A DNA stretch of 60,911 bases from an uncultured Nitrospira sp. (GTDB taxonomy: Bacteria > Nitrospirota > Nitrospiria > Nitrospirales > Nitrospiraceae). The notes beneath the pieces were generated by a model. The model did no database searches. It saw only the letters and a program-made list of their open reading frames with translations, and had not been told where the DNA came from. Position numbers and translations under genes: made by a program. Shown here piece after piece: positions 753 to 45,984 of the stretch (position 1 is the stretch's first letter; each line of letters begins with the position of its first letter). The stretch spans positions 1 through 60,911 of the forward strand of contig CABVRZ010000026.1 in NCBI GenBank assembly GCA_902500775.1. Direction: 5' to 3'.

Positions 753-2360
753 ATGGTATCCTCTCCTCTTTCTAACACGCCTTTCGATCAGACGAACTAT
801 CGCCCAGAGCAGGTCTCCTGGTTTTCGAGTCACCTCATCGACACCATGCCGGTCGGCGTCTGTGTCTGCGATATGGACGGCTTCGTGGTGGCATACAATA
901 AACAGGCAGTCACCCTATGGGGACAGGCCCCACCTGTCGCTGGGCCAGAACGCGCCAAATATTGCGGCTCCAAGAATATCTGTCGACTCGATGGTGCGTT
1001 GCTGCGTCGCGAGGAGTTCCCGGTTGTGGATGTATTGGCTGACGGACAACCGAAACGAGATCTTCAGTTTCTAATCGAACAACCGTCCGGAGCCCGGGTG
1101 ACAGCCGTCGCTAATATCAACCCGATCTTGGATGCCCACGAAACACAAATCGGAGCAGTGGTGTGTTTTCAGGATATCAGCTTCAAACTGCGCTATGAAC
1201 AGCAACAGTTGGAACTGACGAGGTCGCTCCAGCACGGTGCGAAGCTGGCCGCTATCACTCACATGTCGGCTGAGTGGGCGCATGATTTCAACAATCTTCT
1301 GCATGGCGTGCGATGGGAACTCGATCTCATCCGACGCCGACTCGTGAGGACGGGCGACACTGGAAGTTGTCAACATGTCGACCTGGCCCTCCAGGAAATT
1401 GCCAAAGGGAAACCGTTCGTCCAACGGCTGCTGACACTGGCGCGTGAGTCATCCTCGGATCACGCGCTGTGTCCGGTAGATTCGACACTGGTCTCTCTGG
1501 CCGACCTGATGCAACATGTGCTTGGCCCAACCATACGCCTGACCCTCGATCTCAAGGCTCCGGATGCGGCAGTCCAGATGAATCGGAGCGTGTTCGAGGA
1601 TGTCCTAATGAATTTGTGTCTGTGTACACGCGATACCATGCCGAACGGTGGCGAGGTAGTGATGACTTCATACCTGGACGGTACCCCTAGGGAAACGTCG
1701 CCCGACTCAAGCACTCCTTATCTTGTCCTTTCAGTCAGAGACACGGGTCGAGGCATGTCGCACGAGCAGGTGCAGCGCGCCTTGGACCCATCCTCCCTGA
1801 CCAAGCAAGCCTGCGACAGTTCCATCTTAGGATTTGCCATGGCAAAGCGCTTTACCACATTATCCGGTGGAACATTCGACCTTCACAGTCAAAGCGGAGT
1901 CGGCACGAATGTCACGATGTTCCTGCCGATGGACGATGCACTGGCACCGAGACAGTCCATCGATCATGGACCAGCCGTCGTGTCTGAACAACCACGTCCG
2001 ATCACCTCGCTGAACAAATGCCTACGTATACTACTGGTAGAGGATGATCGCACTATTCAACAAGAACTCGCGGATATGCTCAGGATGGGCGGGCATGAAG
2101 TGTTTGCGTTCGCATCGGGTGAGGACGCTGTCGACCTTCTTCGGACTGAACAGCCACTCGATCTCGTGATTTCCGATCACGCGTTGCCCGGATCACTACA
2201 AGGATCCGATGTGCTGGATATCGCAACTAACCGGCGTCTGGGCTTGAAAACCCTCTTGATCACTGGACTACCTCCTCACCATAGTACTCGGAAGCGCTAT
2301 CCGGTACTGATTAAACCGTTTACATTTGAAGAACTGGAGCAGGCCATTTTAACCACATAG
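753..2360 (+). CDS. PAS hybrid histidine kinase with C-terminal receiver
   Basis: A soluble 535-residue sensor. Residues about 20-145 form a PAS domain (a short N-terminal helix, then a VCVCDMDGFVVAYN core). A kinase core of the HDFNN type follows, with the phospho-accepting His at about 177. The N box lies around MNLCLC and the G1 box VRDTGRGM is intact. The G2 box is weak (SSILGFAMA instead of GTGLGL-like), so ATP-lid function may be altered. Residues about 423-535 are a receiver with acidic pair EDD, phospho-acceptor Asp about 475 (ISDHALPG) and Lys about 521. There are no transmembrane segments, so the signal is cytoplasmic. No partner is fused or overlapping; the several orphan regulators downstream are candidates. 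The ATG at 753 is preceded only by a weak purine stretch. Confidence 0.88.
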   Translation: MVSSPLSNTPFDQTNYRPEQVSWFSSHLIDTMPVGVCVCDMDGFVVAYNKQAVTLWGQAPPVAGPERAKYCGSKNICRLDGALLRREEFPVVDVLADGQPKRDLQFLIEQPSGARVTAVANINPILDAHETQIGAVVCFQDISFKLRYEQQQLELTRSLQHGAKLAAITHMSAEWAHDFNNLLHGVRWELDLIRRRLVRTGDTGSCQHVDLALQEIAKGKPFVQRLLTLARESSSDHALCPVDSTLVSLADLMQHVLGPTIRLTLDLKAPDAAVQMNRSVFEDVLMNLCLCTRDTMPNGGEVVMTSYLDGTPRETSPDSSTPYLVLSVRDTGRGMSHEQVQRALDPSSLTKQACDSSILGFAMAKRFTTLSGGTFDLHSQSGVGTNVTMFLPMDDALAPRQSIDHGPAVVSEQPRPITSLNKCLRILLVEDDRTIQQELADMLRMGGHEVFAFASGEDAVDLLRTEQPLDLVISDHALPGSLQGSDVLDIATNRRLGLKTLLITGLPPHHSTRKRYPVLIKPFTFEELEQAILTT

Positions 2361-2528: not shown

Positions 2529-2537
2529 AAAGGAGGT
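2529..2537 (+). promoter_or_regulatory. Strong ribosome binding site that fixes the start at 2542
   Basis: AAGGAGGTG lies just before ATG 2542. A GTG two codons upstream (2536) overlaps the AGGAGG itself and so cannot be the real start. Confidence 0.8.
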
Positions 2538-2541
2538 GTCT

Positions 2542-5175
2542 ATGAGCACACCATTACACCCACAGAAGTACGAAGCCATGCGACACGAACAGGCACGGCG
2601 AATGGGTGTGCCTCCAAATATGCTTGGCCTCTGTCACGATTCAGCTCCTTCGATCGACATCGCGATGTGGACGGTCACGCAATTTTGTTACCTCGACAAT
2701 CCGCTACCTTCCGTTTTTAAAGAACGGTTGTTTGCCTACCTGTCGCGATATTGCTCTGTCCGATATTGTTTGGCTCGCCACATGGGATTTTTACTTGGAT
2801 ACGGCCACATCGCAGGGGACCCCACCTGTTCTCCATTCCAGCTGGAGCAGGTCCTCCAACTTGTACACCGTGATTTTCCAGAAGGACAATGCCTAGACCC
2901 ACACCTCACCAAATTATCGGCACTTCACGTCCCGCTCGACCTCTCTTCCCTTCATGACGACTCTGAGCTCGACCATGCCGTCTTCGCCTGCTGCGCGCAT
3001 CTTTTTCTCCAGACATCGCAGGCCCCGATGTGCCATCGCGCACTTGCCCATGCTCTTGATAAATCGAGCTACAGCTATCTCCGGCTGTTCCTGGCGTACG
3101 TGCGCATGGCTCACTACTGGGCAACAGTGCATCCCGAGTTGGAATACGATTCAGATGTTCTGCCACTCCTAACATCCTGTGGTGAATTCAGCGAAGTGTT
3201 TTCCGTGTCCGGATCACAGGGAGGGCAGACCTATCCACTGCTTGATCGACTGATGCAGCTGCAAGGTTTGCAAACCAGTCGTCAATATATGGAGACAGCG
3301 ATCCATCATGTGGGAGAAGGGCTGACGACGATCGATCGGCAGAATTGCCTTGTCGGCTTTAATACTCGCGTGAAAACGCTCACGGGATATAGCGACCAAG
3401 AACTTCTCGGCAAGCCTCTGTGTATGCTGGTGGCATCTCCCTATCATGACGAACTCCTTGCCTTTCTCAAGCCTAACCAATCCGCGACAACCGAGGCCTC
3501 CGGCCTCACACGCGAAGTGTTAGGAAGGCGAAAAGACGGTACCGTATTTCCGTTGGAAATCTCGGCCACGTCGTATACGGCGGGAGCCGAGCCCTTAATG
3601 ATCCTTGTCTTGCGAGACATCACGACGCGCAAGAGTAAAGAGGAGCAATTGCGGGCCAGTGAGGAGCGGTTTCGGCTTGCAACGGAAGTCATTCGTGGCA
3701 TCGTGTATGAACTGGACCCACTGACACATCGTATCGAATGGTCGGCCGGTCTTCAGGAGGTGCTCGGATGGGCTGATCATGAGAGCCTGCCGACAATGGA
3801 GTGGTGGCTCATGCGCGTTCACCCCGATGATCGGCACGTGTGTGCCGCGCGAAATACAAAGACGGGAACATTCCCTCCATCGATTGAATACCGTGTACGG
3901 CATCGACTCGGACATTGGATCCATGTGGAAGATCGCGCGACGATACGATCTGCCACTCGCGGGAGCTCGCCGCGTGTGATCGGATGCATTCTCGACATCA
4001 CGGACCGAATACGGGCGCACACACTACTCAATGAACAAGATTGCTATCAGGAAACTTTTCTGGAGCCGCTCGCGTATGAACTGCGCAATTCCCTGATGCC
4101 CATCAAAAGTGGCTTCGATCTCCTTGACCACCATCGTGTCGACGACCCTACCACAAACAAGACACGCGCCATGATCTTCCGCCAAGTACAGCATTTCAGC
4201 AGCTTAGCCGAAGACCTTCTGGATCTTAGCCGTATTCGAAGCGGGAACATGCAGCTGCAATTCGAGCAGCTTGTGCTCCAAGACGTGTTCGAGCGCGCGA
4301 AGGAAATGACTGTGTCATTGATCCAGTCTCGTGGACATGATCTCATCATTCATGTTCCGCCTCGCCCTGTATTCTTCAAGGGAGACAGGCTGCGTCTCTC
4401 ATTGGTCTTCTCTAACCTTCTGTTGAACGCTGCGAAATACATGAAGCCGGGCGGGCAAATAGAAGTGACCGCGAGAACACAATATCCTCATGTGGTTGTC
4501 GACATTGCGAACAACGGCATTGAGATGCCACCGGAGAAACTCCCTGATATCGACGACATGTTCACGCAGCTACCTGAACGACCGCCCTACGCTGCAGAAG
4601 GCATGGGAATCGGCCTGCAGCTGGCCAAGACGATCATTAAACTTCATCAAGGTCGGATCGAAGCACATCATAATGAAGCAGGATTGAGTATTACCGTTTC
4701 GCTCCCCATGCTTCTCGAGACGACTGTGCAGATCGGGTCCGTCACACCTGTTCCAGACACAACGTCCACACTGCAATCGACCCACGTGAGAATTTTGGTC
4801 ACCGATGATAATGTTGATATCGCATCAACCACCTCAATGCTGCTCGAACTGGAAGGATATCAGGTCAAAACTGCCGTAACGAGTGCGGAGGCGCTGTCGA
4901 TTGCCGAAGCGTTTGCTCCTCACGTGATCCTCCTTGACATCAGGATGCCCGGCATGGATGGATACGAAGTTTGCCGATGCATCAGATCGCATGATTGGGG
5001 AGAATCCATTCGTCTGATTGCACAGAGCGGATGGTCACCCTCAATCGAGCGCGAACGCGCACTCAGGGCTGGGTTCGACGCATATCTCGCCAAACCCTAT
5101 TCAGTAGATGAGCTTCAAAAAGCCATACGCGATGTTCTCGAGAACGTCCCACATGATCCGTTGAAGAGACGATGA
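2542..5175 (+). CDS. PAS-PAS hybrid sensor with AhpD-like N-terminus and degenerate kinase core (pseudokinase) plus receiver
   Basis: An 877-residue soluble multidomain protein. Residues about 30-215 resemble an AhpD/carboxymuconolactone-decarboxylase-like helical domain, with a C71-x3-YC76-x3-H80 motif. PAS domains cover about 245-365 and 372-490, the second of PAS_3 type with WWLMRVHPDDR. The HisKA helix follows, but the usual HELRN reads AYELRN, so the phospho-accepting His is Tyr512 (codon TAT). The N box (NLLLNAAKY) is kept, while the G1 box is NNGIE instead of DNGIG, losing the ATP-contacting Asp. The C-terminal receiver is intact (TDDN, Asp799, Lys851). I infer a catalytically dead kinase scaffold controlling a live receiver, or a receiver phosphorylated by another kinase. 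The stop at 5175 is followed by a 459-bp non-coding gap. Confidence 0.88.
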   Translation: MSTPLHPQKYEAMRHEQARRMGVPPNMLGLCHDSAPSIDIAMWTVTQFCYLDNPLPSVFKERLFAYLSRYCSVRYCLARHMGFLLGYGHIAGDPTCSPFQLEQVLQLVHRDFPEGQCLDPHLTKLSALHVPLDLSSLHDDSELDHAVFACCAHLFLQTSQAPMCHRALAHALDKSSYSYLRLFLAYVRMAHYWATVHPELEYDSDVLPLLTSCGEFSEVFSVSGSQGGQTYPLLDRLMQLQGLQTSRQYMETAIHHVGEGLTTIDRQNCLVGFNTRVKTLTGYSDQELLGKPLCMLVASPYHDELLAFLKPNQSATTEASGLTREVLGRRKDGTVFPLEISATSYTAGAEPLMILVLRDITTRKSKEEQLRASEERFRLATEVIRGIVYELDPLTHRIEWSAGLQEVLGWADHESLPTMEWWLMRVHPDDRHVCAARNTKTGTFPPSIEYRVRHRLGHWIHVEDRATIRSATRGSSPRVIGCILDITDRIRAHTLLNEQDCYQETFLEPLAYELRNSLMPIKSGFDLLDHHRVDDPTTNKTRAMIFRQVQHFSSLAEDLLDLSRIRSGNMQLQFEQLVLQDVFERAKEMTVSLIQSRGHDLIIHVPPRPVFFKGDRLRLSLVFSNLLLNAAKYMKPGGQIEVTARTQYPHVVVDIANNGIEMPPEKLPDIDDMFTQLPERPPYAAEGMGIGLQLAKTIIKLHQGRIEAHHNEAGLSITVSLPMLLETTVQIGSVTPVPDTTSTLQSTHVRILVTDDNVDIASTTSMLLELEGYQVKTAVTSAEALSIAEAFAPHVILLDIRMPGMDGYEVCRCIRSHDWGESIRLIAQSGWSPSIERERALRAGFDAYLAKPYSVDELQKAIRDVLENVPHDPLKRR

Positions 5176-5634: not shown

Positions 5635-6276
5635 ATGACTCAAGCCCTTAGATGTCTTATCGTTGATGATCACCCCATGATTCGGAGGGGGCTCAAGGCT
5701 CTCCTGCTGGAAGAGGAAAACAATTGCAAGGTCGCCGAAGCAGCCAGTGCCGAAGCGGCTCTGGAGGCCATTCGACGAGAAGACTGGGACTTGATGATTC
5801 TTGATGTGTCGCTTCCCGACAAGCATGGTCTGGAAGTGCTGAAAGAAGCACGCTTACTGCGCCAGAATCTGCCGATTCTTATCTGGAGTCAGTATCCTGA
5901 ACGGGAGTTCGCTCTCCGTATGATCAAAGCCGGTGCAGCAGGCTACCTCTCAAAAGACTGTGCGCCTTCCGAGTTACTGCAGGCAATCAGACAAGTCACG
6001 TCAGGACATCGCTACATTACACCGACCATGGCTGAAAATATCGTGGATTTTGTGACGGACGGACAGCCGGTGTCCCCTCATGATCGACTCTCCGATCGAG
6101 AGCTAGAAGTGCTGCGACTCCTTGGGCAGGGGAAGACGGTCTCCATGATTGCCGACGACATGGCACTCAGCGTGAAAACGATCAGTACCTATCGAGCCAG
6201 AACTCTCGAGAAACTCAACCTCCACACAACTGCTGATTTAATGCGCTACGCAATCGAATACCGGTTGACGACATGA
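5635..6276 (+). CDS. NarL/FixJ-type response regulator
   Basis: A 213-residue DNA-binding response regulator. The receiver covers residues 5-122, with acidic pair D11/D12, phospho-acceptor D57 in ILDVSLPD and K107 in YLSKD. A LuxR-type helix-turn-helix follows at about 148-210 (LSDRELEVLRLLGQGK, then SVKTISTYRARTLEKL). All residues needed for phosphorylation are present, so this is an ordinary transcription factor. A GAGGAGGA ribosome binding site lies 7 nt before ATG 5635. The likely cognate kinase is one of the two soluble sensors just upstream, but nothing in the sequence proves the pairing. The transcript probably ends at the terminator at 6347-6376. Confidence 0.93.
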   Translation: MTQALRCLIVDDHPMIRRGLKALLLEEENNCKVAEAASAEAALEAIRREDWDLMILDVSLPDKHGLEVLKEARLLRQNLPILIWSQYPEREFALRMIKAGAAGYLSKDCAPSELLQAIRQVTSGHRYITPTMAENIVDFVTDGQPVSPHDRLSDRELEVLRLLGQGKTVSMIADDMALSVKTISTYRARTLEKLNLHTTADLMRYAIEYRLTT

Positions 6277-6388: not shown

Positions 6389-6872
6389 CTGCCCCTTGCT
6401 TGTCAGACGAACACGGACATCGCTATCAGCCGTTGTCCGTTAGATCGTTCCTGCCTGGTCATGTAGCATATCCGAAAAACAATCGGATCGCCTATGCGTG
6501 GTGTGATCACCATCAATCATCCGCTTCTGAGACTGGCTATTCGAGTGGTCATTATCAAGGAGAGTCATTCAGCAGCGGTTCACGTTGTCCCAACCGAGAA
6601 AGACACGTTCCAACTCGTTAAGGACTGGTCCATTCGAGGTTGTGATTGTTTGCATCAGTGCACGAGGCTTCAGCCAAACCCATGACCGGTGCAAGGCACA
6701 CGGAGTTGAACACGGCCTTATAAACGAGATTATCAATCCGGCATCACGTCATCGGACAAACCCCGACAGGTCATTCAGTTTCAAACCGATACCCAGGGTC
6801 AACGTCTCTTGGTAACGTTATTTATCACCCATGATATGTGAGAAGTGTTCATGCTCATCGGAGGAGGTCATC
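6389..6872. other. Gene-free interval before the pseudo-receiver regulator
   Basis: Short frames exist, but none shows domain character or a good ribosome binding site. The segment from about 6800 to 6850 is AT-richer and is the likely promoter and leader of the gene at 6873. I see nothing else. Confidence 0.35.
6860..6867 (+). promoter_or_regulatory. Ribosome binding site fixing the start at 6873
   Basis: GGAGGAGG lies 5 nt before ATG 6873. This makes the in-frame upstream ATG (6831) unlikely to be used. Confidence 0.75.
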
Positions 6873-7634
6873 ATGAAATACAGAACTCTTGAGGACAGAC
6901 GAGCCGACAGTCAGGAGAGATCGACGGAGACACACTCGATTATCGGCTCCCCCCATCGATATCCCATTCTGGTCGTCATTGCAGGAAGCACTGAGATTAT
7001 GAGGGCTGGCCTGCGCGCGTTCCTTCAAGGTGAGGAATCCCTCAAAGTAGTCGCGGAGACAGACACCGCGGGCAACCTGCTGTCCACCGTACAGCAATGC
7101 AACCCAGACATCGTCCTGATCGAGTCTCCCCTAGTAAGGGGAACAGATGCCGACATCTGTAAAACTCTGTTAAGCGCTTTCCCGTCGATACGGATTATCC
7201 TCATCGGATCCGGTGATGGCCATGCGACCTTCCATAAAGCGTTGGAAGCAGGTGCACAGGGGTTCCTATTGACGAATGTCCGCCGTGTGGAACTTGTTCA
7301 GGCCATTCACACGGTTGCGAAAGGAGTCCCGTACCTTTGCTCCGAGGCAGTCACCGAAACATTCCGCCTGTTGAGACGACAACAGAATGGATCCCCCATC
7401 ACCTCCCCGGTGCAGGCTCTCTCACGGCAAGAGCGGCGAATCATTGCGCTCATCGCCGAAGGCTGCACCAATAAAGAAATTGCCCTGAAGCTGATTCTCT
7501 CAGAGAAGACGGTAAAAAATTATATCGCCAATCTCTATACCAAACTGGAGATCGAACGCCGAAGCCAGGCTGCGGCCATTTATGTCAAAGCCCAATTCCA
7601 GGATGCGTCGATGGGTTCGAGCATGAGCGCGTAA
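6873..7634 (+). CDS. NarL-like regulator with a non-phosphorylatable (D-to-E) receiver
   Basis: A 253-residue protein with receiver-like fold (about 30-150) and a LuxR helix-turn-helix (about 182-240: LSRQERRIIALIAEG, SEKTVKNYIANLYTKL). Aligned on NarL-type receivers, all key positions are changed. The acidic pair is Gly-Ser (38/39), the phospho-acceptor Asp is Glu84 (VLIESP, codon GAG), the switch Thr is Gly112 and the Lys is Thr134. The fold markers (RAGLRAF, AGAQGFLL) remain. It is therefore an atypical regulator that cannot be controlled by ordinary phosphotransfer; the Glu may lock it in an active-like state. The next gene, a receiver-only protein, starts 14 bp downstream, so the two are probably cotranscribed. 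Confidence 0.88.
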   Translation: MKYRTLEDRRADSQERSTETHSIIGSPHRYPILVVIAGSTEIMRAGLRAFLQGEESLKVVAETDTAGNLLSTVQQCNPDIVLIESPLVRGTDADICKTLLSAFPSIRIILIGSGDGHATFHKALEAGAQGFLLTNVRRVELVQAIHTVAKGVPYLCSEAVTETFRLLRRQQNGSPITSPVQALSRQERRIIALIAEGCTNKEIALKLILSEKTVKNYIANLYTKLEIERRSQAAAIYVKAQFQDASMGSSMSA

Positions 7635-7648
7635 GACAGGAGCGCATT

Positions 7649-8017
7649 GTGCCCACAATACTCATCGTGGACGACGACCAACTGATTCGTGAATTCTTAC
7701 GCATTGTCCTTGAGGAGAATGGTTACCAAGTTGCGGAAGCCGATAGCGGAAAAGCGGCCATACTCTATCTCGAACAGGTTGAGCCCAGTCTCATCATCCT
7801 GGATATGTGTTTGGGTGATATGAACGGCCTGGATATTCTCCCCTATGTGCATTTACGCTGTCAGTCCGCAAAGATTCTGGCAATATCCGGCAGGCCGTTC
7901 GATGGATACAAAATGTGTGAAACCGCGAAAGTGCTCGGCGCGCATGATGCCCTGATGAAGCCATTCGACGTGGCGACATTGGTACAGCGAGTCGCGGCGC
8001 TGCTTGCCCAGCCATGA
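7649..8017 (+). CDS. Single-domain response regulator (CheY-like)
   Basis: A receiver-only protein of 122 residues. The acidic triad VDDD, phospho-acceptor in IILDMCLGDMNG, switch Ser (AISGR) and Lys (MKPFD) are all present. The start is GTG at 7649, supported by CAGGAG 6 nt upstream; no ATG is suitably placed. It has no output domain, so it acts by protein contact or as a phosphate shuttle. Its position 14 bp after the pseudo-receiver regulator suggests the pair work together, one partner carrying the phosphate and the other binding DNA; that is inference. Confidence 0.9.
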   Translation: MPTILIVDDDQLIREFLRIVLEENGYQVAEADSGKAAILYLEQVEPSLIILDMCLGDMNGLDILPYVHLRCQSAKILAISGRPFDGYKMCETAKVLGAHDALMKPFDVATLVQRVAALLAQP

Positions 8018-8371: not shown

Positions 8372-10837
8372 ATGTGGCATGGCATCAACGACTGGCCAAT
8401 CGAGCGAAAGCTGACAGCCATGGGCGTCCTGTCGACGAGTCTGGCGTCGCTGCTCGTCGTCCTGGCGTTCATGGTCAACGACCTGCTCTCCACCCGTGGC
8501 ACGATTGAGACTCGCATGGCCTCGCTCACCGACGTGATCGGCACGAACAGTACCGCAGCCCTGGCGTTCAACGATCCTGCCGCGGCCCGTGATACGCTGG
8601 CCGCCTTGCGCCACGACCCCCATGTCGTATCGGCCTTCACGATCGATGCGGATCGCAACACGTTTGCCGTCTATCGCAATCCGCATGTCTCCGGGCAAGC
8701 GGAACGCCTGTTGGAAGGGGTGGACAAGGAAGCGGTAGCCGCCACGCGCCAGAGCCGCCGGCTCGGGAACTATATTGAGGTCTCGACTCCCATCGTCCTG
8801 GACGGGCAGCTCCTCGGCTGGATCCTGCTCCGATCAGATCTGACGGAATTGGATCACCAACTGCGCCGATCCGGCATGATCGCCCTCGGCATTCTGCTGG
8901 CATCGGGCGTGCTCGCGCTGCTGGTCTCCCGCCAACTCCAGCGCATTATGACCGTCCCTCTGCTCCGCCTGGTGACCACGATGCAGACGGTGGCGAACAC
9001 GAACGATTACGCCCTGCGCGCGCCTACGCCCTCCGCCCAGGATGAAATCGGCGTGTTGACCGACGGGTTGAACACCATGCTGGGGCAAATCCAGACGCAA
9101 CATCGCCAGTTGGCGCAACATCGCGAAGACCTCGAGCAGGAGGTGACGACACGCACCCGGGACCTGCTCGCGGCCAAAGACGCTGCGGAAGCGGCGACCG
9201 TCGCCAAATCCCAGTTTCTGGCGAACATGAGCCACGAAATTCGCACACCGATGAACGGCGTCCTAGGCATGACCGAGCTCTTACAGACCACCCCGCTGAA
9301 CGACCGGCAACGGCACATGACGACAACCATTCAGCGGTCCGGGAATGCGTTGCTCGGGATCATCAACGACATTCTGGATTTTTCAAAAATCGAAGCCGGC
9401 AAACTCGAGTTGGAACACATTCCGTTTAACCTCCACCAGACCATCGAAGATGCCGTGGAATTGTTTGCGGAACCGGCCGCCGCCAAACAGTTGGAGTTAA
9501 CCTGCTTCATCCCCCCGGAGATCCCCGAGATGGTCCTCGGCGATCCGGGCCGACTCCGGCAGATCGTGCTGAACCTCTTGGGGAACGCCATGAAGTTCAC
9601 TACCCGCGGCGAGGTCGCGGTGCGCCTGTCCCGGCTGACCTCGCACGCCGACCGGGTCACGATGAAATGCGAGGTACGAGACACCGGCATCGGTATCGCG
9701 CATAACGTGCAACAACGCCTCTTTACCTCGTTTTCCCAGGCCGATGGGTCGACGACGCGGCAGTTCGGCGGTACGGGACTCGGCCTCGCCATTGTCCGAC
9801 AATTGGCACAGTTGATGGGGGGCGAGGTGGGGGTCGAGAGTACGCCGGGGCATGGGGCGACATTCTGGTTTACGATGCAACTTGCGTATGATCCGGCCCT
9901 GCAGCCACGGGACCCCACCACCGCGCCTTCGCTCGCCGGGATTCACATCCTGATCGTCGACGACAATGCCACGAATCGGTGGATTCTAGAAACCCAAATC
10001 CGCAGCTGGGGGGCCCTCCCCCTCAGCCTGGATCGAGCGGCGACGGCCCTGGCATATCTCCGGCAATCCGTCCGCCAGGGGCCTGCGATCGAGATAGCCA
10101 TTCTCGACATCCACATGCCGGAGATGGACGGTCTCATGTTGGCCCAGGCGCTCAAGGCGGATGCGGACCTGCGGCACATTCCCCTCATCGCCCTCAGTTC
10201 AGGCGAACACCAATCATCGGCCGTGGAGACGACGGCCATGCCCTTTGTCGCCTGGCTCCGCAAACCCGTGCGACAGGTGTTGCTGCACGACTGTGTGCTC
10301 CGGCAACGACAGCGCACGGTGGCAATCACATCGAGTCACGACGACCCAGTCCCCGCCGCCGTTCTCGTCACGGGCCGCATCCTTCTGGTGGAGGATAACC
10401 CCGTCAATCGTGAAGTGGCTGTGGCCATGTTGGAGCTCTTGGGGTATCACGTCGACCAAGCCGAGAACGGCCGTCAAGCCGTGGAGATTCTCGCCAAGCA
10501 CGCTGACGCGTACGCGCTCGTCTTGATGGATTGTCATATGCCGGAGCTGGACGGCTTCGCCGCGACCGCTGCGATTCGACGGCAGGAAGCTGCCCACGGC
10601 CTTGGTCGCCACCTGCCGATCGTGGCCCTCACGGCGAATGGCATGGAGCGCGATCGCGAGAATTGTCTCACAGCCGGCATGGATGACTATCTCTCCAAAC
10701 CCTTTACCCAGGCACATCTGGGGGCGGTGCTGCACCGCTGGCTGGCACCTGGTGCCAGCCCACCGTCTCCGCTGCCTGCGGTCCCCGTCAAGGACGGGAG
10801 GGCTCGGACGACCCCCCTGGGCAGTACCGGCACGTAA
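8372..10837 (+). CDS. Membrane CHASE8-HAMP hybrid histidine kinase with two receivers
   Basis: An 821-residue inner-membrane sensor. TM1 is about 15-37. The periplasmic part, about 40-160, matches the CHASE8 pattern known from YfiN/TpbB ([15 protein letters not shown], then a short loop and FAVYRNP). TM2 is about 168-188, then HAMP. HisKA follows with His288 ([11 protein letters not shown]), then an intact HATPase (N box, G1 DTGIGI, G2 GTGLGLAI). Receiver 1 has VDDN, an [11 protein letters not shown] phosphosite and RKP Lys. Receiver 2 has [15 protein letters not shown] and SKP. There is no HPt domain, so an external one would be needed for a full relay. The TonB receptor and YfiR gene immediately downstream fit a YfiR/CHASE8 periplasmic switch. 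AAAGGA lies 10 nt before ATG 8372. Confidence 0.92.
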
Positions 10838-11191
10838 CGCCTCCGCAAGGGATGACCGTATGGCACTAACGCGATCAAGACGAATGCCTGCGTGTACAAG
10901 ATTCGCGAGATCATTCACGCCAGAGCTGAGACAACTTTGAAAAAGAAGTCTACGCACGAATCTTCTGAATTGTGAGGAGTATCGGATTTCTGTGACACCA
11001 GTGTTGGAACGTATTACACACCTGAAGATCACGAATCGTCGATGTGCGACAGCAGTGATCGCTCGATAGACCTGTGGGCACCGACGAAACCATTGTGATC
11101 ACGTGCAGTAGGTTCAACGATGCAAAGATCCCGACCGATTAGAGCCAGATGGCGTATCGATTTGGGCCGATCTGTCTGAAGGTGGCCAACC
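10838..11191. other. Gene-free interval between kinase and TonB receptor genes
   Basis: No frame is convincing. The interval may carry the promoter of the receptor/YfiR pair; I cannot point to a clear -35/-10. No hairpin with a T tract was seen after the kinase stop. Confidence 0.35.
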
Positions 11192-42709: not shown

Positions 42710-45496
42710 TCAGGCCGCCTTGGGAGGCGCCTGCTGATCATCCGGATTCGGTTCTTGAGCCGTCTGTTCAGTTGCTGCCTCCTGATCACTGGTAGGGAGT
42801 TCGCCGTGCAGAGTGGCCAGCTTTTCTTTTCTCCTTACGGTTCCTTGTAGGGCAGCACCCACAAGACCCGCCATCATCGGCATGGCAAGATCCCTAGCGT
42901 TATCAGGCGCATTGTGTGTTTCCTCAGTGGGCTGCCACGCAACCTGACTTGATTCAGGACGAGCGGAATCCGATGAGTCACGGTCCACCATGGTTCCTTC
43001 CTGCTGGCTCGATGCCGTCGAGGAGTGTCCCTTCCTTTCTGAGCCACCCACTTGCTTCTCAACTCCTTCAAGGGCATGATCCGACAGATTTCGCCCGGGG
43101 GCGAGAATATCGACTGTAGGAGCAGCCGGCAGATCCCACTCAACCGGTTTTCGAAGCTCATTCGGCAACCACAATTCACTCCGGTCACCGTCGCTCTCGA
43201 TACTCGGTGAAGAAGCACGCGGCATCACTGCCTCAGACCACGCAGGACTCTTCTGAAACAGAGAGGCAACCAACGTCTGTTCTCCGCCATCACCTTTCTC
43301 AACCTGAGCCGGGCCTTCGTTCACATTGGTCAGAGTGATGGTAAAGCGCTCGCGATAGCTCGCCCCGCCGCTATCCGTCACCTGCACCGTCAGGTTGTGA
43401 CTGGCCGCATGCTCATAGTTCAGTAACGACCCATCCGCCACCGTAATCACGCCGGTACTGGCATTGATCGCAAACCGCCCGCCCGCCGTATCCGTCAAAC
43501 TGTACGTCTTGGTATCGCGTGCATCGGGATCCGTGCCCGTTACGGTGCCCACGACAGTCCCGGTGCGGGCATTCTCGGCCACGCTGTTGGCCGACAAGCT
43601 CAAGTCCGTCGGGCCTTCGTTCACATTGGTGAGGTTAATCGTAAAGCGCTCGCGATAGCTCGCCCCGCCGCTATCCGTCACCTGCACCGTCAGGTTGTGA
43701 CTGGCCGCATGCTCATAGTTCAGTAACGACCCATCCGCCACCGTAATCACGCCGGTACTGGCATTGATCGCAAACCGCCCGCCCGCCGTATCCGTCAAAC
43801 TGTACGTCTTGGTATCGCGTGCATCGGGATCCGTGCCCGTTACGGTGCCCACGACAGTCCCGGTGCGGGCATTCTCGGCCACGCTGTTGGCCGACAAGCT
43901 CAAGTCCGTCGGGCCTTCGTTCACATTGGTGAGGTTAATCGTAAAGCGCTCGCGATAGCTCGCCCCGCCGCTATCCGTCACCTGCACCGTCAGGTTGTGA
44001 CTGGCCGCATGCTCATAGTTCAGTAACGACCCATCCGCCACCGTAATCACGCCGGTACTGGCATTGATCGCAAACCGCCCGCCCGCCGTATCCGTCAAAC
44101 TGTACGTCTTGGTATCGCGTGCATCGGGATCCGTGCCCGTTACGGTGCCCACGACAGTCCCGGTGCGGGCATTCTCGGCCACGCTGTTGGCCGACAAGCT
44201 CAAGTCCGTGGGAGCTTGATTCACCGCTTCGGTGTCATAACTGATTTGCACATTGTCGACAAACAGGCGATCCCCTCCACTCGTCCCTGTCACAATAAAT
44301 TGGATCTTGGTATTTGCCGATGCATAGTCGGAGATATCAAACTTTGCCGTACCACTTCCGGTATTGTCTGCACGTGAGAAGGTCCCACCGTCCAACGTCG
44401 TATAACTTTTTCCACCGTCAGTGGAGATACGGATATCAACACTGCCTCCCTTGTCGAAATCATTCTCATAGTCAAAACTGAGCGTCGCACTGCCCACCCC
44501 GCTCAAATTCACACCACGACTGACGGAAGCTCCAACCTTCTGAGTCTCGATCCGCAACTCCCCCGAGTTGACCTTAATATGCCCACCATTGGCATCGCTC
44601 GCCCCAACATCCACCTCTGACCACTTTGAGGACCACGACTGTGTCCCATCGTTGTTTCCATATGACTTATCCGAGAACGTATCTGCCACGGTCTCGGTTC
44701 CCAATATTCCGGCCCAATTCATCTGCGCATCATAGTCAATGGCCAACGACGTCTCGATTGTTCCCGTACTGACTTCAAATTCCCAATCTCCCCCGAGTGA
44801 GATGCTGCCGGTGAGATCGGTACTGGCTTGCACATCGGCCCCCGTGAGTTCAGCCAGCATGTCCACCGCGGCTTGCCCCACTTCCCCTTGTGCGAACTCA
44901 CACCCATAGACGAGGATATCGGCCTGCTCGGAAAGTGCTTGTTGAATCACCGCCATGTCATCCGCATATTGCGTCGACATCGAGTCCGCATTGAGTACCC
45001 CGGTCCCGAGTTGGAGCTCTCCGGCGCCGCCGTGTGAGATGACATGAATCGCATCAATACCGCTGCGACCAGACAGGGCGTTGGCCATCTGCTCAATGCC
45101 ATCTTGCCCGCCGTCGAGCATAATCACTTCGACGTTCGAATTCATGCCGCTGAGGAGATCCTGGTAGTTCGGAACGGTGGGGTCAACGAACACCACTTCA
45201 CTTCTCGATTCGCCTGGATTATAGGTTGCAATCGCATCGAGTAGACCCTGTGATTCAGCCTGTTCCGCAGACTGACCCTCAGTGTGAGCATCGGACGACA
45301 CCGCCGCCTCGGCCTGCTCTTGTGCGACCTGTTCGGACGCGACTTCGGAAACCGTCGCCGATGCCGCCGCATCGAACATGAGCCGCTGTTCGAGGGAAAC
45401 GAGCGACCCTTTGATGCCCGGCGACGGGACCGAGATCTGCCGGTCCTTTTTCTCACTCGAGTCAGATGAGTTCTTTTTTTTCCCGAATCCAAACAT
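42710..45496 (-). CDS. Large surface protein: DUF4347 domain plus three cadherin-like repeats
   Basis: 928 residues from ATG 45496 (GAGAGGA just upstream). The N-terminal FGKKKNSS and LEQRLMFDAAA (LEPR-like motif) are followed by a DUF4347 domain (about 100-250: VIMLDGGQDGIEQMANAL, IHVISHGGAGELQLG, ADILVYGCEFAQGEVGQAAVD). Then comes a jelly-roll-like segment (about 265-430) and three 100-residue cadherin-like repeats (SLSANSVAENARTGTVVG, ... RFTINLTNVNEGPTD). The C-terminus is low complexity with one hydrophobic stretch (MPMMAGLVGAALQG). LEPR/DUF4347 proteins are surface-attached or type-I-secreted adhesins. The three repeats are near-identical in DNA. Confidence 0.85.
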   Translation of the reverse strand: MFGFGKKKNSSDSSEKKDRQISVPSPGIKGSLVSLEQRLMFDAAASATVSEVASEQVAQEQAEAAVSSDAHTEGQSAEQAESQGLLDAIATYNPGESRSEVVFVDPTVPNYQDLLSGMNSNVEVIMLDGGQDGIEQMANALSGRSGIDAIHVISHGGAGELQLGTGVLNADSMSTQYADDMAVIQQALSEQADILVYGCEFAQGEVGQAAVDMLAELTGADVQASTDLTGSISLGGDWEFEVSTGTIETSLAIDYDAQMNWAGILGTETVADTFSDKSYGNNDGTQSWSSKWSEVDVGASDANGGHIKVNSGELRIETQKVGASVSRGVNLSGVGSATLSFDYENDFDKGGSVDIRISTDGGKSYTTLDGGTFSRADNTGSGTAKFDISDYASANTKIQFIVTGTSGGDRLFVDNVQISYDTEAVNQAPTDLSLSANSVAENARTGTVVGTVTGTDPDARDTKTYSLTDTAGGRFAINASTGVITVADGSLLNYEHAASHNLTVQVTDSGGASYRERFTINLTNVNEGPTDLSLSANSVAENARTGTVVGTVTGTDPDARDTKTYSLTDTAGGRFAINASTGVITVADGSLLNYEHAASHNLTVQVTDSGGASYRERFTINLTNVNEGPTDLSLSANSVAENARTGTVVGTVTGTDPDARDTKTYSLTDTAGGRFAINASTGVITVADGSLLNYEHAASHNLTVQVTDSGGASYRERFTITLTNVNEGPAQVEKGDGGEQTLVASLFQKSPAWSEAVMPRASSPSIESDGDRSELWLPNELRKPVEWDLPAAPTVDILAPGRNLSDHALEGVEKQVGGSERKGHSSTASSQQEGTMVDRDSSDSARPESSQVAWQPTEETHNAPDNARDLAMPMMAGLVGAALQGTVRRKEKLATLHGELPTSDQEAATEQTAQEPNPDDQQAPPKAA
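43311..44210 (-). repeat. Three tandem 300-bp repeats inside the surface protein gene
   Basis: Units 43311-43610, 43611-43910 and 43911-44210 are identical over long stretches; the first (C-terminal) unit differs by a few bases near its start. Such near-identity points to recent amplification or ongoing homogenisation, and the repeat number may vary between strains. Confidence 0.9.
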
Positions 45497-45984
45497 AGGG
45501 ATCCTCTCACCCATCCAGGATGCAACCCCACATCACATATCGGTCGAATACCGTCCCCTCTGAAAGAAATCCATACATGGTTGGACAGGAACGGATCTGA
45601 ACCATCAGAAAGAAACTGATGGCCTGTCTTGCATTCGACTGCAAGTATTGCTCATGCAAAGCCCGTTTCATGATCTACTTCGGACACACACCCGGCTGAT
45701 CCCCCCACTCACTAGTCCTAACCTCACGCCAACATCACCTGGATTTAGCTTGCCCAGAAGACCTAATCACTCACATGCTATTTACATCATAAGCCATTGA
45801 TTATAAATTATTTTACATTTAACTATCGCGTTGTCGTCATGAACCTTGGCCAATTGAATCTCCCCAGACGGCACTCCTCTCCCATGCTCCTTGTTATGGA
45901 CTGGGCCAACTGACACCGGTAGAATGCAAACATCTCCTGACGCCGGTCATCTCAGCAAACTCTAGGCCTTCTGGAGGGTGCCCC
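45497..45984. promoter_or_regulatory. AT-rich divergent regulatory region
   Basis: 488 bp between the surface protein and the DUF3617 gene with no protein-like frame. The core at 45775-45835 is strikingly AT-rich and contains TATAAT on the minus strand (45800-45805). It probably holds the surface protein promoter with a long leader. No clear -35 was found. Confidence 0.4.

Follow-up and report, generated by a model that had tools for sequence, protein, structure and literature searches.

A candidate hybrid pseudo-histidine kinase with an intact receiver in an uncultured Nitrospira

Group A Streptococcus has RocA, and Corynebacterium glutamicum has the ChrS pseudokinase; to our knowledge, both are membrane sensors that carry no receiver. 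They are dead kinases that act on the signalling of another kinase (PMC7028121, PMC9491836). In DivL of Caulobacter and other Alphaproteobacteria, Tyr occupies the position of the phospho-accepting His in a protein that combines PAS domains with a DHp/CA fold. The DivL Tyr550 protein has neither kinase nor phosphatase activity and acts as a sensor of DivK~P, and restoring the His did not rescue autonomous activity (PMC4211667). Pseudo-histidine kinases are already known, from a few studied cases.

Here we describe a gene at 2542-5175 of a contig of 60,911 nucleotides (the window, i.e., the whole stretch of DNA that was analysed). With moderate confidence, we regard its product as a hybrid pseudo-histidine kinase, in which a regulated receiver output would be fed by another kinase and gated by sensors. 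Its closest relatives by sequence are the HELRNP hybrid kinases of Burkholderiales, Planctomycetes and others (loci L022-L042 and L188-L191; 30-38% in the kinase core, about 40-48% in the receiver). Their domain order is like that of our protein, but all those examined keep the His and the G1 Asp that it has lost.

Reading frame, domain layout and the N-terminal domain

The reading frame is open from end to end (2536-5175), and its 877 codons agree in codon-position composition with the neighbouring kinase gene at 753. Since the Shine-Dalgarno sequence AAAGGAGGTG lies just 5' of ATG 2542, this codon is likely the start. Numbered from it, the residues discussed below are Tyr 512, NNGIE 657-661 and receiver Asp 799; from GTG 2536 they become Tyr 514, NNGIE 659-663 and Asp 801. 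Besides two PAS domains, Pfam detects a HATPase_c, a receiver and, weakly, a HisKA (Table 1), with no match in the first 240 residues. HisKA, just under its cut-off in one search, reached 30.0 bits and passed it in a second. The predicted model of the kinase core shows a two-helix part plus an alpha/beta core, with an ATP lid of low confidence, and the DHp and CA domains are recognisable by both Pfam and model.

The first 200 residues are predicted to adopt an all-helical AhpD-like fold. Their model (pLDDT 78, pTM 0.80) has AhpD as its top Foldseek match, at a probability of 1.00 but an E-value of 0.05, and VIA-align superposes it on 6e8l with a Z score of 13.8 over 167 residues (rmsd 3.3), rows 2 to 13 being all of AhpD-like fold; by sequence, the domain has no match in the PDB. 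Six aligned sequences have the motif K-E-x-L-F-x-Y-L-S-R-x-C-x4-C-x3-H in common. The domain shares with AhpD and carboxymuconolactone decarboxylase the predicted fold and the Glu, Cys and His of the motif, whereas the CxxC pair of the AhpD active site is replaced by C-x4-C in all six sequences and the domain here precedes PAS sensor parts. The predicted fold invites the guess, and no more, that the signal is redox or peroxide.

In a search of 295 genomes of the phylum, this predicted AhpD-like domain occurs in front of PAS sensors in 5, this one included, and further in G001 (from the search of the genus) and on one Pseudomonas plasmid; neither in these 295 genomes nor in a search of 79 genomes of the genus with the kinase part did another gene have the identical domain set. 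The relatives of the N-terminal domain (in G001, G311, G260, G119 and G271) have different PAS and kinase parts or are truncated, and are thus uninformative on Tyr512. A search of published papers on Nitrospira pseudokinases, or on histidine kinases with an AhpD domain, returned nothing relevant.

Table 1. Features of the candidate pseudokinase gene and of its neighbours in the window
Feature	Position	Strand	Remarks
Candidate hybrid pseudo-histidine kinase gene	2542..5175	+	877 aa from ATG 2542; 879 aa from GTG 2536
N-terminal AhpD-like domain (predicted)	2560..3144	+	uncatalogued in Pfam
PAS domain 1	3286..3621	+	PF00989, E=2e-12
PAS domain 2	3733..3984	+	PF08447, E=4e-19
HisKA/DHp domain, degenerate	4051..4245	+	PF00512, 25.2 bits (cut-off 26.9)
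Tyr codon TAT replacing the phospho-accepting His	4075..4077	+	
HATPase/CA domain	4381..4710	+	PF02518, E=2e-19; fold predicted kept (model)
N-box Asn631	4426..4428	+	kept
Broken G1 box NNGIE	4510..4524	+	D-x-G-x-G expected
F-box Phe replaced by Asp	4552..4554	+	residue 673
Intact receiver domain	4792..5130	+	PF00072, E=1e-22
Receiver phosphoacceptor Asp801 (GTG 2536 numbering)	4936-4938	+	codon GAC
Neighbour hybrid kinase	753..2360	+	PAS-HDFNN-CA-REC
753 protein, His177	codon 1281	+	kept
753 protein, N-box Asn replaced by Cys291	codon 1623	+	
753 protein, G2 box	1815	+	DSSILGF
LuxR-type response regulator	5635..6276	+	intact receiver; kernel shared with G091
LuxR-type regulator with pseudo-receiver	6831..7634	+	Glu in place of the acceptor Asp; shared with G091
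Stand-alone receiver	7649..8017	+	shared with G091

Catalytic losses in the kinase core

The kinase core was aligned with 104 cores from other loci. A sequence-only reading of the DNA had pointed to Tyr in place of the acceptor His and to NNGIE where DNGIG is expected, and both observations hold, with positions that are exact when counted from ATG 2542: every one of the 103 rows with a residue in the Tyr column has His, and the G1 Asp, here Asn, and the second G1 Gly, also lost, are each present in 103 of the 104 cores. That reading had counted two active-site losses. Although both are real, the count was too low, as 9 of the 31 columns conserved at 85% or more are lost, including Pro at H+5 (Pro in 103/103) and the first Phe of the F box (conservation 0.99). 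This is the highest number among the 105 aligned sequences (the next has 7), and five of the lost columns are 99-100% conserved. The N box, the PAS domains and the receiver Asp are intact, as had been noted; in addition, the G2 glycines (Gly689, Gly691 and Gly693) and the Y-E-L-R-N of the DHp helix are retained. Of the hallmarks of an active HELRNP-type hybrid kinase, then, the C-terminal receiver with its phosphoacceptor is present, while the H-box His and the G1 D-x-G-x-G are not; the mark of a pseudo-histidine kinase, a missing acceptor His, missing ATP-site residues or both, is found.

A sequencing error as the sole cause was rejected, since the losses are spread over two domains and one error would be insufficient. 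A nearby His as a new acceptor was likewise discarded: the other His residues belong to the loop and the second helix (LLDHHR, RQVQHF), one of them where relatives often carry His as well, so that no replacement acceptor site is evident. A HisKA search of this genome returned 48 places, 47 of them readable, and two of the 47 lack the His (Tyr here, Thr at C2:10966). The second of these domains (L236, G000:C2:10930-11200) has its Thr in FLATEVREPL. The published rate of a missing His in HisKA domains is 0.9% (PMC12632262). Judged by sequence, the missing acceptor His is real, and it is uncommon, not unheard of. With no acceptor His, a broken G1 box and a lost F box, established histidine-kinase biochemistry leads us to infer that the protein would be incapable of autophosphorylation.

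The receiver and its stand-alone relative

Only one syntenic locus was found, in 1 of 79 genomes of the genus (G091, a draft genome of 86% completeness). In order, it carries a 753 orthologue, 75% identical in amino acids, a stand-alone receiver of 133 residues and then orthologues of 5635, 6831 and 7649. This receiver, 81% identical to that of the 2542-5175 gene, sits exactly between the 753 and 5635 orthologues, with no sensor or kinase attached. The 79 genomes yielded no orthologue of the kinase part (best match about 32% identity), and the orthologue comparison at positions 512 and 657 met a single gene, that of G091, which carries no kinase part.

In a tree of 111 receivers, whose bootstrap is not fully settled and in which deep branches of the hybrid-kinase clade are poorly resolved, the two receivers fall together in a 39-row clade (100/99) whose members are nearly all receivers from hybrid kinases. 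Inside this clade they belong to a HELRNP-type set of 32 rows (92/90), whereas the phylum's solo receivers are placed elsewhere in the tree. When plasmids were searched with only the G091 receiver as query, the top matches were receivers at the C-terminus of hybrid kinases, at 45-48% identity. Because the tree sets both receivers inside those of hybrid kinases, the fused form is probably ancestral, the receiver being what G091 retained after losing the sensor and kinase. A resemblance between the two gene starts was considered as proof of one in-frame deletion and rejected as too weak: 3 of 2000 shuffles reach its score, and equal scores occur elsewhere in the window.

A codon comparison of this genome with G091 gives a dN/dS of 0.15 for the receiver, which is thus under purifying selection. 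The receiver-only relative supports an output of the 2542-5175 protein through its receiver; together with this selection and the reality of the catalytic losses, it lends support to the earlier suggestion of a pseudokinase acting via its receiver.

The neighbouring kinase, the cassette and competing explanations

The sequence-only reading had also brought in the kinase at 753, as a heterodimer partner and, in a suggested assay, as phosphodonor of the receiver; neither the donor role nor that of an active partner is supported. The 753 protein retains His177 and its receiver Asp475, but Cys replaces the N-box Asn here (Ser in G091) and its G2 box is DSSILGF (ESSIVGF in G091), vs GTGLGLA in the CckA-like 5idj. 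Having lost both, it is an unpromising candidate for either role and can probably not autophosphorylate, judging from these residues. It is a second CA-dead kinase, with losses shared with G091 and a dN/dS of 0.17. Its CckA-type relatives include PDB 5idj; the NCBIfam CckA models match it at E about 1e-34, far below cut-off, and a weak match to the ChpT-type PF10090 (E=2e-4, below cut-off) fits a phosphotransferase without showing it. What a 753-like protein could still do may be illustrated by analogy with the N-box mutant EnvZ N347D, described in a reference list (PMC2688746) as kinase-negative and phosphatase-positive, with reverse phosphotransfer.

Several further observations concern the surroundings. 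The pseudo-receiver of the 6831-7634 regulator also lacks the Lys, and its nearest homologues in other genomes of the genus mostly have Glu, Lys or Thr at the acceptor site. At about 6490-6720 lies what is left of a small, degenerate receiver gene; its frame is broken here but open in G091 (L128, about 10600-10950). An intact CHASE8-HAMP-HisKA hybrid kinase (8372-10837), missing from the syntenic locus, is probably a later arrival; its GC content at codon position 3 is 0.77, vs 0.56-0.59 in its neighbours. Finally, the G091 homologue (L128, 2422-4812) of the HDFNN kinase at 42710-45514 stands upstream of the 753 orthologue, which indicates that the two loci have been rearranged.

The favoured explanation, a hybrid pseudokinase with a working receiver, would operate within a small cassette comprising the 753 protein (His intact, CA-dead), the 2542-5175 protein, the LuxR regulators 5635 and 6831 and the receiver 7649. 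The AhpD-like and PAS modules would sense a signal, the inactive dimer/CA core, predicted still to fold, would set the exposure of the receiver or its choice of docking partner, and the C-terminal receiver would be the output, receiving phosphoryl groups on Asp801 from another protein. As far as sequence can tell, the kernel shared with G091 has several phospho-acceptor sites and no evidently active kinase, which would place the phosphoryl source outside the kernel. It is tempting to extend this to the whole cassette, as a phosphorelay without an active kinase in which 753 is a phosphotransferase hub, the Tyr pseudokinase a signal-gated receiver, the phosphoryl source external and the receiver freed in G091, but this scheme is doubtful.

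Alternatively, the dead core might act as a DivL-like adaptor that binds a phosphorylated receiver, its own or a partner's, and allosterically switches the CckA-like 753 protein, the receiver being the input. The Tyr stands at the same place as Tyr550 of DivL, with PAS domains upstream; DivL binds DivK~P without catalysis (PMC4211667); 753 resembles CckA (NCBIfam models, PDB 5idj); and in G091 the stand-alone receiver beside the CckA-like gene recalls the relation of DivK to CckA. However, a 753 protein without N-box Asn and G2 box leaves hardly any kinase for the adaptor to switch, a fused receiver is lacking in DivL and the kinase core is missing in G091, which makes this explanation unlikely.

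Another possibility is that the kinase core is in decay in this genome, a functionless relic beside a receiver that alone is still selected, with the loss complete in G091. The many invariant residues lost and the total absence of the kinase part in G091 would agree with this, but the frame runs for 877 codons without stop or frameshift, the PAS matches are sound, the N box and G2 glycines are kept and the core is predicted to fold. Moreover, the remnant near 6490-6720 is visibly frame-broken, so that decay, where present, shows in this window; we consider decay of the core quite improbable.

Slighter still are the prospects of a dedicated phosphatase, whose DHp E-L-R-N, with its acidic residue and Asn at H+4, would dephosphorylate a partner receiver without the His. 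Y-E-L-R-N is kept and the His is dispensable for HisKA phosphatase activity (PMC12632262), yet DivL, with the same substitution, has no such activity (PMC4211667), damage to the nucleotide site would make it weaker, the Pro at H+5 has gone too and G091 has no kinase core. A heterodimer with mutual rescue, in which 753 gives the His and the 2542-5175 protein the N box and G2 for phosphorylation in trans, is hardly credible: the defects are complementary on paper, but the loss of the G1 Asp, second G1 Gly and F box predicts poor ATP binding, the DHp domains are of different types (HELRN vs HDFNN) and G091 retains the 753 protein without any partner core.

Two neighbouring dead kinases appear to share one cassette, and automatic annotation would label both as active hybrid kinases. 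The hybrid pseudokinase and the receiver-only form, apparently the same gene in two genomes, offer a natural comparison on the role of the dead kinase part.

For the Tyr substitution, DivL is the nearest precedent that has been studied, and the protein also matches it by sequence (PDB 4q20, E=4e-16). Nevertheless, it is not DivL: where DivL has no receiver, it carries a fused one and an AhpD-like N-terminus, and its kinase core comes from the HELRNP hybrid family, with no orthology to the alphaproteobacterial protein. DivL, too, has a CckA-type protein beside it in its pathway, but the CckA-like neighbour here is itself CA-dead; the partner kinases of RocA and of the ChrS pseudokinase are active.
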